64,000 nt of DNA from a virus, in IMG/VR virus record IMGVR_UViG_3300044816_000066, positions 1 through 64,000 of that record; one strand, 5' to 3'. Under the pieces are notes generated by a model, which had not been told where the DNA came from, did not search any database, and was given only the letters and a program-made list of their open reading frames with translations. Made by a program: the position numbers and the translations under genes. Below, piece by piece: positions 2,379 to 13,147 of the stretch. Every line of letters begins with the position of its first letter. Within the stretch, counting starts at the first letter, position 1.

Positions 2379-3094
2379 TGGCAGCCCTATCGCTACCAAA
2401 CGAACTCGAAACGCGAGCGCTCTCACTGACGGAGCAGGCGCAAGTACTAACGGTCCGATCTCAGCCGGACTTCGAGAGGGCGGGAAAGTTCATCACGGAA
2501 GTTATCAAGCCGTTGATCAAAGAAGCCAGCGAGATTTTCGATCCGATCATCGCCAAGGCTCACGAAGCCCACAAAGAGGCTATCACTCAAAAGAAGAAGA
2601 TTGTCGAGCCGCTGGAGTTGGCCGAACGGACCATCAAGGGTGAAATCTCCCGCTACTGCACCGAGCAGGAGCGCGTCGCACGGGAAGCGCGGCTTGCTGC
2701 GGAGCGAGAACAGCAGAGACTACTTGACGAACAGATCGAGCGCGAAGTCGAAGCGGCGGAGGAAATGGCCAAGGCGTTCGGTGACGCTCCGGAGCAAGTG
2801 GAGGCCGAAGTCAAGGCCATCATCGAACAGCCGCGCGTTTACCCTCCGACTCCCATGCCGGCCGTTCGACTGATGCCGGTGAAGGGCGTCTCGACGGTAG
2901 ACGTTTACAGCGCCGAAGTGGTGAACATCCGCGAGTTGTGTCGGGCTGTTGCCGACGGGCGCGCAGGGGCAAATCTAGTTCTTCCGAATCAGCCCGCATT
3001 GAACGGACTAGCACGGTCACTGAAGGAAGGCCTTAGCGTGCCCGGAGTGCGGTGCATCAAAACGAAACAGGTAAGCGCAAGGAGCGCTCGATAG
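2378..3094 (+). CDS. Coiled-coil phage protein of the recombination cassette
   Basis: 238 residues. Residues 60-150 are strongly charged and helical with many Glu/Arg heptads, so a long coiled coil is likely. The C-terminal 80 residues form a separate domain starting near VRLMPVKGVSTVDVYS. Similar proteins often sit between phage exonuclease and single-strand annealing genes, and some are annotated as nuclease-inhibitor-like. I see no catalytic motif. It may be a structural partner of the flanking nuclease and annealing protein. Confidence 0.7.
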   Translation: MAALSLPNELETRALSLTEQAQVLTVRSQPDFERAGKFITEVIKPLIKEASEIFDPIIAKAHEAHKEAITQKKKIVEPLELAERTIKGEISRYCTEQERVAREARLAAEREQQRLLDEQIEREVEAAEEMAKAFGDAPEQVEAEVKAIIEQPRVYPPTPMPAVRLMPVKGVSTVDVYSAEVVNIRELCRAVADGRAGANLVLPNQPALNGLARSLKEGLSVPGVRCIKTKQVSARSAR

Positions 3095-3096
3095 AC

Positions 3097-3993
3097 ATGG
3101 CATCAGGAACGGCAGTAACCGAAACGAACGCGGTCGCGACGGTCCCGCAACCTTCCACGATTTACCACTCGCCCGACGCGGAGCGCTTCGCGATGGAGCA
3201 GCGCATGGCACGGGTATTCGTCACCAGCGGATTGTTTGGCGACATCAAGGGACAAAGTGCGGAGCAGTCAATCGCCCAGGCGTACGTCAAGATTGCGCTC
3301 GGCAATTCGATGGGATTCTCACCAGCGGAATCCATGCAGGGGATCGACCTGATCCAGGGCCGCCCGGCGATCAGCGCTCAGCTTCGAGCAGCGCGCATGC
3401 AGCGGGCCGGGTTCTCGTGGGCGCCCACGGCCACGGATAAGGGTTGCTGGCTGGCAATGTTCTACCAGGGCAAGCCGATCATGATTCCGCGTATCAATCC
3501 GCAGACCGGCGAGATCGTTCGGGCATCCGACGGTAGCGTAGCGCTGGAGCAGGCGATTGTCAGCTATACGGAGATCGACGCAAGGGCGGCGGGGTTAGCG
3601 GGCAAGGACAACTACAAGAAAGATCCTAGTTCGATGTACTTCGCCAGGGCGGTAACGCGGGCGCAGCGGCGCTTCGCTCCCGGAGTGCTGAGCGGCGACA
3701 TCCTCTCTCGCGAGGAAGCTTTTGATGTTCCGGTCGATGGTTACGAGGTCATCGCCGAACCTCGATCCAAGTACGAGACGTTGCCAGCGAAGACGGAGGT
3801 GGAAGCCGAAGCACTGCAACCCATCACGGATGGTCAGTGCAAGCGATTCTACGCCATCGCGAGTGAATCCGGATGGCAGACCAGCGAGACAGACAAGCTC
3901 CTGGCCGCCAACGGCTGGACATCTGCAAAGCAGATCACGCGCGACAAGTACGACGCCATCATCGAAGCCTTGCAGGGCGGAAAAGATTCGTAG
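3097..3993 (+). CDS. RecT-like single-strand annealing protein
   Basis: ATG at 3097 (after AAGGAGC near 3080) gives 298 residues. An upstream frame extension to 3052 overlaps the previous gene and is less likely. The core contains the RecT-like pattern of a helix with a small-residue patch (LGNSMGFSPAESMQGIDL), then GRPAISAQLRAARM, a beta-rich middle, and the YFARAVTRAQRRFAPG helix. RecT proteins anneal complementary single strands during phage recombination. The C-terminal 55 residues (from about ITDGQCKRFYAIA) form a small helical module also found on other phage recombination proteins. The nuclease two genes upstream supports this role. Medium-high confidence. Confidence 0.75.
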   Translation: MASGTAVTETNAVATVPQPSTIYHSPDAERFAMEQRMARVFVTSGLFGDIKGQSAEQSIAQAYVKIALGNSMGFSPAESMQGIDLIQGRPAISAQLRAARMQRAGFSWAPTATDKGCWLAMFYQGKPIMIPRINPQTGEIVRASDGSVALEQAIVSYTEIDARAAGLAGKDNYKKDPSSMYFARAVTRAQRRFAPGVLSGDILSREEAFDVPVDGYEVIAEPRSKYETLPAKTEVEAEALQPITDGQCKRFYAIASESGWQTSETDKLLAANGWTSAKQITRDKYDAIIEALQGGKDS

Positions 3994-4043
3994 TTGAATC
4001 TAGCACATAAAGGAGGAACGCGGAACCAGTGAATTGACCGAGC

Positions 4044-4074
4044 GCGGCCTGTCAGGGCGATCTGACAGCGCCGC
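4044..4074 (+). other. Stable RNA hairpin between recombination gene and small ORF
   Basis: CTGTCAG (4049-4055) pairs perfectly with CTGACAG (4062-4068) around a 6-base loop, and the stem continues for five G-C pairs (4044-4048 with 4070-4074) with one bulged base. There is no T-tract, so this is not a standard terminator. The stretch 3994-4199 holds this hairpin, an AAGGAGG at 4010-4016 not followed by a sensible reading frame, and no other gene that I can defend. Confidence 0.6.
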
Positions 4075-4199
4075 AGGATCATCGACATGCCAGCAAGGCA
4101 TCGAGCTGGCGGTACCTAAGCTGGATTCGGACTTGTCGATGGTCCTGCAGCGCGACCTTAGCGCGAGAACGGTTCCATGTAGTGAAAGGACTAATCAAA

Positions 4200-4379
4200 A
4201 TGAAAACATTCAAGATCTTACTTCGCGGGCAAAGCACGGTAACGGTGAGCGCCGCGTCTTTCTCCCTCCAACTCTTTTTCAATAGCCGTTGGTACGTATT
4301 CGCTGACGGCGGGAACATCGAAGTAGCCCGGTTTGCGCAAGGTGAAGTGCAGGCGATCGGCGAGTATTCCCAAGCATAG
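4200..4379 (+). CDS. Hypothetical 59-residue protein
   Basis: ATG at 4200 has GAAAGGA about 12 bases upstream. The product begins MKTFKILLRGQSTVTVSAAS and has alternating polar and hydrophobic residues typical of a small beta-barrel, with FFNSRWYVFADGG in the middle. Function unknown. It precedes the glycosyltransferase gene in the same orientation. Confidence 0.6.
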   Translation: MKTFKILLRGQSTVTVSAASFSLQLFFNSRWYVFADGGNIEVARFAQGEVQAIGEYSQA

Positions 4380-4408: not shown

Positions 4409-5479
4409 ATGCCAGTTGAGCACCATCGCAATCACCCAGACGTACATCATCCCTGGTCGGGCTGGTCTGAAGATCAGACGCTCCACGTGGCGACGGCATA
4501 CTCCAACCCATTCCGGTGGAGGATGCGCCGCGAATTGGCGAACGATTTCCGCCGGCATATGGGCCACTCCGCAAACGTCGATCTCCACTTCGGAGAACTG
4601 GCTTACGCTAACCGCCCATTCGAAGTTACGGACGTAACCAAACATCCGAATGATGTTCAGATGCGCACGCAGAATGAACTGTTTCACAAGGAAAACATTC
4701 TCAATCGCGTCATTACCCACTTTCCGGCCGATTGGAAGTACGGAGCGATCATCGATGCCGATTTCCACTTCACGCGCCACGACTGGGCTCTGGAGGCCGT
4801 GCATCAACTCCAGCACTACGACTTCGTTCAGTTGTTCTCCAGCTACGTCGATATCACTGGCGACGTCTACGGACAAAAGGACTTACCGATCCGGGCTAAC
4901 ACGGGCTTCTTTTTCAATTACATCAACAACGGATACAAGGTCAGCCCGCAGTACCACAACACGCACATCAAGTGCGGCAAGGGCAAATACGAGGATTCGG
5001 TATTCATGCGCGGCGTGGGCGCCACCGGTGGAGCATTCGCGTTCAGGCGCTCCGCATTCGATGCTGTCGGCGGCCTGCTGGATCGCTGCATCCTTGGGCA
5101 CGCAGACTGGTACATGGCGTTCGGCCTGGTGAACGTGGAGCCACCGGACATTCATTCCCAGAAGTATCACCCGGACTATAAGCACTACATCCGCACCTGG
5201 ATCGAGCGCGCCAAGGTGCTGCAAAAGAACATTGGCTACGTGGATGGAATGGCCGTCCACAACTTCCACGGATCCAAGACGCGCCGGGCTTATTCAAGTC
5301 GCGATGTGATTCTGGCGAATAACGAGTACTCTCCTTACGTTGACGTGCATCAGGATTACCAAGGGATCTGGCAACTGAATCCCAACAAGCCAAAGTTGCG
5401 GGATGACATTCGGCAGTACTTCATTCAGAGATCAGAGGATGACGCGAATCTGTACTCGCCGGAAAAGACGATGGTGTGA
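4409..5479 (+). CDS. Glycosyltransferase-like protein
   Basis: 356 residues with AGGAGA 5 bases before ATG. The N-terminus (THxVA-type strand LHVATAYSNPFRWRMRRELA) leads into a nucleotide-sugar-binding type fold. The DxD-like metal site is IIDADFHF near residue 115. A later GATGGAFAFRRSAFDAVGGL near residue 200 matches the acceptor-loop region of family-2 (GT-A) enzymes, and LGHADWYMAF follows. Phage enzymes of this kind may glycosylate phage DNA, host surface sugars or virion proteins. The acceptor cannot be read from the sequence. It is a lone gene with no sugar-nucleotide synthesis genes nearby, so it probably uses host donors. Confidence 0.7.
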   Translation: MPVEHHRNHPDVHHPWSGWSEDQTLHVATAYSNPFRWRMRRELANDFRRHMGHSANVDLHFGELAYANRPFEVTDVTKHPNDVQMRTQNELFHKENILNRVITHFPADWKYGAIIDADFHFTRHDWALEAVHQLQHYDFVQLFSSYVDITGDVYGQKDLPIRANTGFFFNYINNGYKVSPQYHNTHIKCGKGKYEDSVFMRGVGATGGAFAFRRSAFDAVGGLLDRCILGHADWYMAFGLVNVEPPDIHSQKYHPDYKHYIRTWIERAKVLQKNIGYVDGMAVHNFHGSKTRRAYSSRDVILANNEYSPYVDVHQDYQGIWQLNPNKPKLRDDIRQYFIQRSEDDANLYSPEKTMV

Positions 5480-5491
5480 GGTGGGCGGGAT

Positions 5492-5599
5492 GATCGGGAA
5501 ACCGATCGCCCTGCAAGTCCGATCGGCGCTGCCACAGAAAGGATTGGCTTCTTCCGGGGGGAGGAAATACCAATCTTGCCGATCGGACTCGCAGGGCGA
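5492..5599 (+). ncRNA. Candidate structured RNA: long foldback hairpin
   Basis: Bases 5506-5527 pair with 5578-5599 in 21 of 22 positions, with one A-C mismatch (5515/5590). The helix continues inward with 5540-5547 pairing 5570-5577, then 5549-5555 pairing 5560-5566 around a GGGG loop, and leaves only a 12-base bulge on the 5' side. Just upstream, GATCGG-GAAA-CCGATC (5492-5507) forms a hairpin with a GNRA tetraloop that competes for the base of the long stem. No reading frame of any quality covers the region. A terminator follows at 5652. It could be a small RNA, a leader that controls the next operon, or a mobile foldback element. Confidence 0.6.
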
Positions 5600-5651
5600 G
5601 CACTTGAAGGCCGCTGGCTGGCGGTGCCCGTCTCAGCCATTTAGGGAGTTT

Positions 5652-5670
5652 ACGGGGCTCCCGTGTTTTT
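5652..5670 (+). terminator. Short intrinsic terminator
   Basis: ACGGG (5652-5656) pairs with CCCGT (5660-5664) over a 3-base loop and is followed by GTTTTT. An alternative pairing of GGGAG (5644-5648) with CTCCC is possible. It lies 13 bases before the next start codon, so it would separate or attenuate transcription between the glycosyltransferase/foldback region and the following operon. Confidence 0.5.
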
Positions 5671-5682
5671 GAAAGGAACGTG

Positions 5683-5937
5683 ATGGACATAGCAATAAAC
5701 GAACAAGCGCCGATCAACGTCATCGAGCATCGCATCGTCAACCGCGTTCAGAAATGCTCCCGAGATCAGAAGTGCTTCTCGATGCAGCGATGCCTTGACG
5801 ATGCCCTTCCCAAGCATGGCTTGCGGCTACAGGGCTATCGCGGGGCCGATGGTGAAACGATCTGGTCAGTCGTCTATCACGTTGCCGGGCTGGATCAGCA
5901 TTGTTGGGTTTGTCCGTTTTGCTTGGGGGAATTATGA
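5683..5937 (+). CDS. Small protein with C-terminal Cys motif
   Basis: ATG at 5683 has GAAAGGA 6 bases upstream; GTG at 5680 is an alternative. The 84-residue product has scattered Cys in its first half (CSRDQKC) and ends with CWVCPFCLGEL, which suggests a small metal-binding protein. It overlaps the DUF3310 gene by four bases. Function unknown. Confidence 0.65.
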   Translation: MDIAINEQAPINVIEHRIVNRVQKCSRDQKCFSMQRCLDDALPKHGLRLQGYRGADGETIWSVVYHVAGLDQHCWVCPFCLGEL

Positions 5938-8638: not shown

Positions 8639-9454
8639 TTGAAAAACACATACGAAGTTAGGGGCGAAACGGTCGCCATTAATCTTGCGGGTGGACTGGA
8701 ATGTCTGATCGACGAGAAGGCTTTGCCGCGTGTATCACGGGCTGCGGGCACTCACTCCTGGTTCGCCAAGCTTGACACACGAGACGGGATTTATCGGGTG
8801 GTGGCGAAGCTCACCGATGGTGAGATTTTCGTCCGGCGCGTAGTCGCCGAGGCCTCAGCCGAAATGGTCGTCTCTATGAAGAATCGGGACGGGCTAGACT
8901 GTCGGGCCGCAAACCTTAAAATCTCATTCATACCGCCGCGGATTCAGGCACCACTTATTGTTCCTCCGCAAGTCCCGGAAGGCGCTCAGCTTGTCCCGCT
9001 GAACAGGAGTTTCGCAATCGTCGATTCTGCCGATGCGGAGATGGTTCGGAAGTACCGCTGGAAAGAGAACCAAGGGTACGCTGTCCGCTCTAACGGGCGC
9101 GCCGCAACGCTGAGTATGCACCGGCTGATAATCGGCGCGGTGGATGGTCAATATGTTGACCACATCAACGGCAATCCGCTGGACAATCGCCGATCCAATC
9201 TCCGCGCCTGCACGAATGCCGAGAACTCTTGGAACGCCAAAAAACAGAAGCGATCGAAGTCGCCACTGAAGGGCATAACGCTCAATAAATCCACCGGAAA
9301 GTTTCGCGCCCAGATCATGATTAATTACAAAAAGATCAACCTGGGCGACTACCCTACGCCTGAAGAGGCTGCGCGTGTCTATGACGTTGCAGCCCGCCAA
9401 CACTTCGGCGCATTCGCCCGACCGAACTTTCCCGCACCCGAGCCAGCGGCATGA
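8639..9454 (+). CDS. HNH endonuclease with AP2 DNA-binding domain (homing type)
   Basis: 271 residues from TTG 8639. Residues about 118-205 form an HNH_3-type nuclease (MHRLIIG, then VDHINGNPLDNRRSNLRACT). Residues about 212-262 form an AP2/ERF-type domain (KGITLNKSTGKFRAQI, LGDYPTPEEAARVYDVAARQ). This domain pair is typical of free-standing homing endonucleases. The first 100 residues look like a degenerate copy of the HNH region: LIDEKALPRVSRA mirrors IVDSADAEMVRKY, and MKNRDGLDCRAANLKI mirrors HINGNPLDNRRSNLRA, but the HNH His residues are lost. The next gene overlaps by ATGA. Confidence 0.85.
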   Translation: MKNTYEVRGETVAINLAGGLECLIDEKALPRVSRAAGTHSWFAKLDTRDGIYRVVAKLTDGEIFVRRVVAEASAEMVVSMKNRDGLDCRAANLKISFIPPRIQAPLIVPPQVPEGAQLVPLNRSFAIVDSADAEMVRKYRWKENQGYAVRSNGRAATLSMHRLIIGAVDGQYVDHINGNPLDNRRSNLRACTNAENSWNAKKQKRSKSPLKGITLNKSTGKFRAQIMINYKKINLGDYPTPEEAARVYDVAARQHFGAFARPNFPAPEPAA

Positions 9455-10641: not shown

Positions 10642-10829
10642 CGCTACTACCGTGCCCGTTCTGTGGGTCAGGAGACATGTTTGTCGATGGGGCTAATAAC
10701 CGATGGGTGACTTGCGTACAATGCTACTCGTCTGGACCGTCATTCGATGGCATGGGCAAGATTGAAAAGGCGTGCGCGGCATGGAACAAGCGCACGCCCC
10801 TGCCAGAAGATTCGGGGAGTGCCAAGTGA
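10638..10829 (+). CDS. Lar-like zinc-ribbon protein
   Basis: GTG at 10638 overlaps the previous stop. The 63-residue protein has the restriction-alleviation (Lar) type pattern: LLPCPFCGSGDMFV, then a second Cys pair VTCVQCYSSGP, and the closing AAWNKR. In enteric prophages, Lar reduces attack by host type I restriction. Many phage zinc ribbons share this fold without proven activity. It lies immediately upstream of a helicase-methyltransferase, which would also fit an anti-restriction theme. Confidence 0.7.
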   Translation: MTLLPCPFCGSGDMFVDGANNRWVTCVQCYSSGPSFDGMGKIEKACAAWNKRTPLPEDSGSAK

Positions 10830-13147
10830 AGCACGTTTCGGAACTGCTGGAGAAGATTCCGTACGCGGAGTTCCTGGCGTCGAAAGAAAAGAAAGCTCTC
10901 GATTATGGATGGGACGTCGGACTATCCGACCTGAATCCGCGAATGAAGGATTTCCAATCCGCCATTGCGAAATGGGCGCTTAAACGAGGACGTTCCGCTA
11001 TCTTCGCGGGGACCGGACTCGGCAAGACGTTCATGCAGATGGAATGGGCTAGGGCAATCGTCGATAAAACGTTCGGAGCCGTTTTGATACTGGCTCCTTT
11101 CGCTGTAGCCAATCAGACCGTGGGCGAAGGGGATAAGTTCGGCATCGAGATCTACCGGGCAATGGATCAATCGGAATGCGGGAATGAGGGTATCTATGTA
11201 ACGAACTACGATCGGCTTGATAAGTTCGACACGTCTAAGTTCGCGGGCGTCGTACTCGATGAAAGTTCAATCCTCAAGTCCCTAAACGGTGCAACCAAAA
11301 AAGAACTAATCGAGCGCTTCAGCCGAACGCAATACCGATTGTGCTGTACCGCAACCCCGGCTCCAAACGATCACATGGAACTTGGCAACCATGCTGAGTT
11401 TCTCGGGGTAATGACAGCAGTCGAGATGCTGGCGACATGGTTCGTTCATGACGGCGGCGATACGTCCAAGTGGAGACTGAAGGGCCATGCCACGAAAGAC
11501 TTCTGGCGATGGGTCTCATCATGGGCCGTGTCCATCGAGAAGCCGTCTGATCTTGGATTCAGTGACGATGGATATGACCTCCCACCGCTCCATATTATTG
11601 AGCATGTGGTGAAGGTGGATCAGTCTATAGACACCGATGGAATGCTGTTCCGCGCGCCGGACATGAGCGCCACTGGGCTACATAAAGAGATGCGGCTTAC
11701 GACCGCTCCTCGCGTCGAGAAGTTGATGGAACTCGTGGACGAAACATCCATGGGTGTGATCTGGTGCAACACGGATTACGAGGCTGATGAGATCAATAGG
11801 CAGGCCCGACTAGAGAACTTTGATCTGTATGAGGTTCGTGGTTCCGGGATGACTTCCGAGCAAAAGGAGAATATTCTATCCCGGTTCTCCCAAGGAGACA
11901 TAGACTGGATTCTCACCAAATCGAGAATCGCTGGATTTGGGATGAATTGGCAACACTGCAACTGGGTTGCATTCGTCGGACTGTCCTACTCCTATGAGCA
12001 GATGTACCAAGCCATCCGCCGATGCTGGCGTTTCGGGCAACTACGGCCCGTCTATGTCCACATCATCTGCGCGGAGACCGAGGGCAAGGTAGCGGAGTCT
12101 CTCAAGCGCAAAGAACAGGAAGATATTGTCATGCGTCGTTCACTCGTTGAAGCGATGCGCGAGACGCAACTGGACGGAGCGATGCGGACGAAGGTTCCCT
12201 ACCGAACGGAATGGCGAACGGGTGATGGTTGGAATTTAGGACTGGGGGATAGCGTGGAAGTTTTGCAAAAGGTGCCTGACGATTCGGTGGATTACATAAT
12301 TTACAGCCCGCCATTTAGTTCGTTATATTGCTATTCCAACTCTGACCGCGACATGGGCAACTCGCTCACTTACCGGCAGTTCATCGACCACTATAGGTTT
12401 CTGGCAAAGGAGTTATACCGAGTCCTCAAGCCGGGCCGCCTACTCTCCTTCCATTGCATGAACCTGCCCTTATCTAAGGAACGAGACGGAGTGATCGGGC
12501 AGCGCGACTTCCGCGGGGCGTTGATTAAAGCGCACGAACGTTGCGTCAATTGCGATAATCCACGGCCCGAGTTCGGCGATGATGAACCGCACGCTTGCGG
12601 GAACTATCAAGGCATGGTGCTCCATTCCGAGACGTGTATCTGGAAAGACCCAGTGACGGCCATGCAGCGTACGAAGGCCATTGGACTCCTTTACAAGCAG
12701 CTTCGTAAGGATTCCGCACTATCTCGGCAGGGCATTCCCGACTACCTCATCACAATGCGCAAGGATGGCGTGAATCCTGATCCGGTAACCAAGACTCACG
12801 AGTCCTTCCCGGTGTCTGAGTGGCAGGAATACGCATCGCCAGTTTGGATGGATATCGATCCATCGGACACACTACAACGCGAGTCGGCACGGGAGCACAA
12901 AGACGAACGTCATATCGCTCCGCTTCAACTCCAAGTCATCAGTCGGGCCATTCGGTTATGGACTAATCCCGGTGATCTGGTGTTATCCCCATTCGCAGGC
13001 ATCGGATCAGAGGGTGTAGTGGCGCTGGGGATGGGCCGGCGCTTTCTCGGGGTGGAACTGAAAGAGTCGTATTTTGGACAAGCCGCGCGTAATTTAGACG
13101 AACAGTCCAACTCGATCCAGGGTAATTTACTGGAGCACTTAGCATGA
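10826..13147 (+). CDS. SNF2-like helicase fused to DNA methyltransferase
   Basis: GTG at 10826 gives 773 residues. The N-terminal half is a superfamily-2 helicase/ATPase: Walker A GTGLGKT at 62-68, motif II VVLDESS near 145 (an atypical DESS box), CCTATPAPNDH (motif III) near 175, and a C-terminal helicase lobe with RIAGFGMNWQHC and QAIRRCWRFGQ near 365-400. The C-terminal third is an N4/N6-amino methyltransferase with the catalytic SPPF box near residue 493 and the AdoMet-binding motif SPFAGIGSEG near 720, giving the beta-group motif order. Such fusions occur in phages and may methylate phage DNA while moving along it. No partner restriction gene is seen. Confidence 0.85.
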   Translation: MKHVSELLEKIPYAEFLASKEKKALDYGWDVGLSDLNPRMKDFQSAIAKWALKRGRSAIFAGTGLGKTFMQMEWARAIVDKTFGAVLILAPFAVANQTVGEGDKFGIEIYRAMDQSECGNEGIYVTNYDRLDKFDTSKFAGVVLDESSILKSLNGATKKELIERFSRTQYRLCCTATPAPNDHMELGNHAEFLGVMTAVEMLATWFVHDGGDTSKWRLKGHATKDFWRWVSSWAVSIEKPSDLGFSDDGYDLPPLHIIEHVVKVDQSIDTDGMLFRAPDMSATGLHKEMRLTTAPRVEKLMELVDETSMGVIWCNTDYEADEINRQARLENFDLYEVRGSGMTSEQKENILSRFSQGDIDWILTKSRIAGFGMNWQHCNWVAFVGLSYSYEQMYQAIRRCWRFGQLRPVYVHIICAETEGKVAESLKRKEQEDIVMRRSLVEAMRETQLDGAMRTKVPYRTEWRTGDGWNLGLGDSVEVLQKVPDDSVDYIIYSPPFSSLYCYSNSDRDMGNSLTYRQFIDHYRFLAKELYRVLKPGRLLSFHCMNLPLSKERDGVIGQRDFRGALIKAHERCVNCDNPRPEFGDDEPHACGNYQGMVLHSETCIWKDPVTAMQRTKAIGLLYKQLRKDSALSRQGIPDYLITMRKDGVNPDPVTKTHESFPVSEWQEYASPVWMDIDPSDTLQRESAREHKDERHIAPLQLQVISRAIRLWTNPGDLVLSPFAGIGSEGVVALGMGRRFLGVELKESYFGQAARNLDEQSNSIQGNLLEHLA

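Follow-up and report, generated by a model that had tools for sequence, protein, structure and literature searches.

A long inverted repeat lies directly behind a glycosyltransferase-like gene in a phage record from IMG/VR, raising the question of whether it acts as an RNA, acts as a DNA element, or is incidental to a coding sequence. A first-pass annotation of the locus had considered a stable RNA, a two-state leader, and a miniature inverted-repeat element. We analyzed the window, that is, the whole stretch of DNA available to us, which covers 64,000 of the 66,154 bases of the record. Its phage genes (exonucleases, RecT, integrase, helicase-methyltransferase, terminase, portal, and head protein) are on the + strand. 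It is a soil phage, and Bryobacterales is its likely host order because the integrase finds its three best genome matches in Bryobacterales/Bryobacteraceae. The ORF at 10772-13144 encodes both a DNA helicase (PHROGs 62/16) and, fused to it, a DNA methyltransferase domain (PHROG 67), and the left end of the record (1-199) encodes GCTALTELKADAAEYVYA-type repeats. The foldback behind the glycosyltransferase-like gene, designated E1, and the hairpin that follows it are made up of these parts:

5480..5642, + strand: element E1, a four-way-junction foldback that fills the intergenic space behind the stop codon of the glycosyltransferase (TGA 5477-5479)
5480..5488 / 5628-5638, + strand: closing stem P1 of 3+6 bp (MFE helices; pair probability about 0.6)
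5492..5507, + strand: hairpin P2 (5492-5497/5502-5507), GAUCGG-GAAA-CCGAUC with a GNRA tetraloop (MFE; pair probability 0.96)
5506..5527, + strand: 5' arm of the long stem P3 (inverted repeat of 22 nt, 21/22 complementary)
5528..5577, + strand: apical region, a 12-nt bulge and then 8-bp and 7-bp helices (MFE helices)
5578..5599, + strand: 3' arm of the long stem P3 (inverted repeat, 50 nt from the 5' arm)
5600..5627, + strand: 3' hairpin P4, GCACU/GGUGC with inner GGCC/GGCU (MFE helices)
5644..5670, + strand: weak intrinsic-terminator-like hairpin with a T tract (pattern scan; pair probability 0.98)

The pairing described earlier was borne out. The 22-bp arm pairs at 21 of 22 positions (5506-5527 / 5578-5599), and the GAAA hairpin, the 12-base bulge (5528-5539), and the inner helices of 8 bp (5540-5547/5570-5577) and 7 bp (5549-5555/5560-5566) are all present in the MFE structure. 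E1 is larger than first described: with the closing stem (5480-5488/5628-5638) and the 3' hairpin (5600-5627) it becomes a four-way junction. In this MFE anatomy P3 spans 5508-5527/5578-5597, and P2 and P3 abut with zero nucleotides between them. Folded as RNA, 5480-5642 had an MFE of -92.6 kcal/mol (z -6.64; overall z -6.2 to -6.6), and 0 of 200 shuffles were as stable. Whether 100, 160, or 200 nt were folded at a time, no stretch of the window outranked E1 (regression z -7.5, -5.9, and -5.1, respectively). We simulated 15 sequences of 64 kb that matched the dinucleotide content of the window; allowing one mismatch or none, their longest arms measured 13-16 nt, compared with 22 in E1, so the earlier description of the structure as far beyond chance holds. 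The minus strand folds too (z -6.5); because any inverted repeat folds on both strands, the fold does not indicate which strand is transcribed.

Relatives of E1 were sought at several levels. None of 4227 Rfam covariance models matched within the window at its gathering score, in agreement with the earlier statement that the structure belongs to no known family. The best match of a permissive Rfam scan of the window was MIR918, at 22.6 of 268 bits and through stem pairing alone, and the permissive matches to the long stem of E1 were rejected as chance matches to miRNA precursors. E1 gave no blastn match in phage and plasmid collections, the exact 21-mer of its arm was not found in viral contigs, and DNA searches of 257 Bryobacterales genomes returned chance-level matches only. 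A single-sequence covariance model of E1 gave no accepted homologue in these 257 genomes or in related viral contigs; one match at <0.01 (G149; L147) lay inside a long ORF, had a z of -2.0 and many broken pairs, and was dismissed as chance. No E1 homologue was found near relatives of the glycosyltransferase, portal, RecT, or integrase genes. The first-pass annotation had proposed a covariance-model search for homologues and had itself named the lack of compensatory base-pair changes and of a second genome carrying the element as evidence against its claim. The search recovered neither homologues with compensatory changes nor another genome with E1, and the RNA claim therefore stays unproven. 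E1 is real and strongly non-random and has no known relatives.

A hairpin pattern, GATCGGGNAACCGATCGCCC, matched four viral contigs and was set aside, as these have the GNRA hairpin alone in common and not the whole of E1. This hairpin, CGATCGG-GNAA-CCGATCG, lies between genes on unrelated phage contigs (L247 456-475, L248 3472-3491, L249 2347-2366, and L250 2649-2668); in L247 and L248, which are near-identical, it is an ordinary terminator with a T tract.

A second foldback, E2, was missed in the first pass. Like E1 it is intergenic, with genes of the same strand (+) on each side. Its parts and the genes around the two elements are as follows:

4018..4182, + strand: element E2, laid out like E1 and located between the RecT-like gene (stop 3993) and the 59-aa ORF (start 4200)
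4046..4072, + strand: hairpin of E2 that borders directly on the long stem and has a GCGA (GNRA) tetraloop (MFE helices)
4068..4087, + strand: 5' arm of the long stem of E2 (inverted repeat of 20 nt, 18/20 complementary)
4134..4153, + strand: 3' arm of the long stem of E2 (inverted repeat; 46 nt between arms)
3052..3993, + strand: RecT-like annealing protein gene (PHROG 561, E 4.6e-10), upstream of E2
4200..4379, + strand: small ORF of 59 aa without known relatives, first gene of the unit bracketed by E2 and E1
4409..5479, + strand: GT-A-fold glycosyltransferase-like gene (TGA 5477-5479), second gene of the bracketed unit
5683..5937, + strand: 84-aa ORF of no known family, downstream of E1

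The E2 region (3994-4190) folded with a z of -3.4, and 0 of 200 shuffles were as stable. Among the 100-nt folds of the window, E2 (at 4061) ranks second, behind E1. Both elements show the same order of parts: a closing stem comes first, then a GNRA hairpin immediately next to the long stem, the apical helices, and finally a short 3' hairpin. The long stem of E2 has 15 contiguous bp, or 20 when one mismatch and one G-U pair are admitted. With G-U pairs allowed and a loop of 25-80 nt, the only stems of at least 16 bp in the window were those of E1 (23 bp) and E2 (20 bp), and simulations gave 0.08 stems of at least 18 bp per 64 kb. No terminator was seen at E2. Together, E1 and E2 bracket a two-gene unit consisting of the 59-aa ORF and the glycosyltransferase-like gene, and E2 is the best new support for E1 having a function.

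The 59-aa ORF is coding by codon usage, with a score typical of real genes, and gave zero matches in the phage collection. The glycosyltransferase-like gene had no match in Pfam, NCBIfam, and PDB sequence searches; its AlphaFold model (pLDDT 80) matched GT-A glycosyltransferases in Foldseek, which supports the name given to the gene earlier. We found 32 viral relatives of this gene, and a portal gene related to that of the window was absent from 22 of the 22 records of these relatives that were tested, indicating that the glycosyltransferase gene moves between phages. The family, which has no Pfam or NCBIfam model, is thus present in at least 32 viral contigs (loci L005-L036); Xanthomonas phage XaC1 (OR258281.1) also carries a member, annotated as hypothetical.

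We then compared the foldbacks with related phages. Relatives of the glycosyltransferase at 61-63% identity lack E1, and L150, the nearest phage by RecT (73% identity), keeps the exonuclease-RecT order and has neither foldback. In the more distant L151 (RecT 52% identical), a foldback with a 23-25-bp stem and a loop of 43-47 nt (9020-9150) fills a different intergenic gap, the one separating an SMC-like gene from a small ORF. Only seven stems of at least 18 nt with at most one mismatch occurred in 1.71 Mb from 141 viral loci; such stems are therefore rare, yet not unique to the phage of the window. A comparison of the E1 and E2 cores gave a pairwise p of 0.0045, and whole elements compared against structure-preserving shuffles gave p 0.045, with unrelated controls at 0.005 and 0.02. 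Since unrelated controls reach similar p-values, we do not claim sequence homology among E1, E2, and the L151 foldback: what is supported is a common geometry and not a common sequence.

Some further loci came to light in this comparison. A strong fold near the glycosyltransferase relative in L024 proved to be simple repeats of GGTCAGTG type and was rejected. L023 has a separate long intergenic foldback of about 19 bp with a structured loop (3763-3860), right behind a gene that is upstream of its glycosyltransferase relative. At L149 (2633-3676), in a Bryobacterales genome, a RecT-like gene of 47% identity is interrupted by TGA and stands in the same exonuclease-RecT order as in the window; this locus is a probable decayed prophage relative.

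E1 is likely to be either a stable RNA or an element for RNA processing. As the best explanation, to which we give somewhat short of even confidence, we propose that E1 and E2 are intercistronic double-stranded RNA hairpins of an early operon that are cut by host RNase III or protect mRNA ends. We infer that both elements would be transcribed as non-coding parts of a rightward early operon, where their long stems (about 20-23 bp, two helical turns) would offer double-stranded RNA to host RNase III or block exonucleases. The mRNA of the 59-aa ORF and the glycosyltransferase would be released, or would be given its own stabilized 5' and 3' ends, and the two-gene unit would be separated from the upstream recombination genes and the downstream genes. 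Only a fraction of the transcripts would read on past the weak terminator behind E1.

Precedents for such a role exist. RNase III cuts several sites in the phage RNAs of lambda, T7, and T3, a study of E. coli sites set 22 nt as the minimum double-stranded target, and cutting sometimes leaves stabilizing hairpins (PMC5371410). Several operons, among them prophage dicA-dicF-dicB, have known RNase III sites between their genes (PMC2777011). Measured against a length of about two turns (at least 22 bp), the stems of E1 (22-23 bp) and L151 (23-25 bp) are long enough and that of E2 falls slightly short. All four Bryobacterales genomes examined encode RNase III (above the PF14622 cut-off), the host itself being deduced from integrase similarity. 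What counts for processing is the beyond-chance stems, their intergenic bracketing positions, the L151 foldback, the non-coding look of E1, RNase III in the likely host order, and these precedents. What counts against it is that the stems are not conserved beside the glycosyltransferase in relatives or after RecT in L150, and that the closing stem, GNRA hairpin, and 3' hairpin of E1 exceed what a processing site needs.

E1 and E2 resemble the RNase III sites in T7/T3 early mRNA and in lambda, including that of int/sib retroregulation, in being long imperfect hairpins of about two turns, placed between genes that would belong to the same operon. They are likewise several per genome, E1 stands right behind a stop codon, and RNase III is present in the likely host order. 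Unlike those sites, E1 has an extra closing stem, an abutting GNRA hairpin, and a 3' hairpin, its cleavage is a prediction, and it has no sequence match in the phage collection. E1 would also resemble DicF, an intergenic RNA of a prophage operon that is bounded by a terminator and by processing (PMC2777011). In contrast to DicF, E1 has no Rfam match and is a predicted RNA. DicF is also far less self-paired than E1.

The main rival to processing hairpins is a stable trans-acting RNA of about 190 nt, of which E1 would be all or part and which would pair with or titrate host or phage targets, with E2 as a second such RNA; release would come through the downstream terminator and perhaps RNase processing. 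We regard this as possible but unlikely. It draws on the very stable multi-branched fold with its GNRA hairpin, on the terminator-like hairpin and T tract behind this fold, on the presence of two elements of like layout within one genome, and on prophage DicF, which arises from an intergenic region through termination and RNase III/E processing (PMC2777011). However, a consensus scan found no promoter-like site upstream of E1, no homologue turned up in any collection searched, E1 is paired almost throughout and so offers few unpaired bases as a seed, and E2 is without a terminator. A cis-acting leader or attenuator, in which the GNRA hairpin, the long stem, and terminating ribosomes would tune terminator read-through into the downstream genes, appears quite improbable. 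E1 does begin at the first base past the stop codon, with its closing stem within the footprint of a terminating ribosome. The competition between GNRA hairpin and long stem claimed earlier is real but kinetic: at equilibrium P2 overlaps the long stem by just 2 bp and both form together, whereas in the folding model transcripts ending at 5527-5577, before the 3' arm, recruit the 5' strand of the long stem into an extended GNRA hairpin, which is displaced once the 3' arm is transcribed. This early hairpin gives the two-state leader idea a structural basis, but the terminator part of that idea fares worse. The intrinsic terminator reported 50 bases downstream does have a hairpin and T tract; it lies 45 nt after the arm, however, and is weak and of a type found at near-chance frequency (5 in 4 kb, with 3.7 expected by chance), and no counterpart was seen at E2. 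Because its hairpin pairs at 0.95-0.98 in every modelled state, whether the 5' end is blocked or free, no terminator switch is predicted.

The foldback could instead act at the DNA level, as a MITE-like foldback element, an inverted-repeat site for recombination, replication, or protein binding, or, together with E2, as one of the possible ends of a mobile glycosyltransferase cassette. Bacterial foldback and MITE elements such as ERIC, NEMIS, and REP are about 90-160 bp long and intergenic with a long inverted repeat, as E1 is; the occurrence of the glycosyltransferase family in unrelated phages, where it behaves as cargo, and its bracketing by two foldbacks of like geometry would also suit such a role. 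Unlike those elements, E1 is present in a single copy in the record, with neither arm having an approximate second copy; no direct repeat of 5-9 bp flanks the element, whichever ends are chosen within 5470-5500 and 5630-5680, so no target-site duplication was seen, and copies are absent from the candidate host genomes (chance-level matches only among the 257 of Bryobacterales), phages, and plasmids. The miniature inverted-repeat reading of the first-pass annotation is not supported by these results. Sequence homology between E1 and E2 could not be demonstrated, the controls giving equal p-values, and relatives of the glycosyltransferase are not bracketed by foldbacks. We consider a DNA-level element very unlikely. 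That E1 lies within a short protein gene, its inverted repeat being incidental to coding, is highly improbable. An open frame of 60 aa (ATG 5490 to TGA 5672) does cross E1 and has a plausible ribosome-binding site in the Shine-Dalgarno-like stretch GAGGTG. However, its codon score of -0.03 places it in the 6th percentile among real genes, 13% of off-frame segments score higher, no significant protein relative was found among the loci examined, and coding would not explain the 21/22 repeat. The sequence of E1 thus leans towards non-coding. A retron ncRNA (msr-msd) was rejected: no reverse transcriptase gene lies beside E1, and the neighbouring genes are otherwise assigned. Among long ORFs, [YF]xDD matched only 3 times, always as F-V/I-D-D and in genes otherwise assigned or in a head/structural position.

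Going beyond single processing sites, E1, E2, and perhaps the L151 foldback might form an undescribed class of phage RNA, defined by a four-way junction whose GNRA hairpin sits directly against a two-turn stem and competes with it kinetically, and used in pairs to bracket and insulate accessory genes in Acidobacteriota phages. We hold this extension to be quite improbable. The most economical reading takes E1 as one more example of a known functional type, here in a group of phages that is unstudied.

At present, E1 is a well-supported structural oddity without relatives; the bracketing E2 adds to the interest of the finding, and the failure to find homologues takes from it. Should E1 and E2 prove to be one RNA class, they would represent a new structured phage RNA. 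If the processing reading is true, phages from uncultured Acidobacteriota of the soil would use intercistronic hairpins like those of T7 and lambda, by which accessory genes would get their own mRNA, and a simple screen for two-turn stems in intergenic gaps would find such sites without sequence homology.
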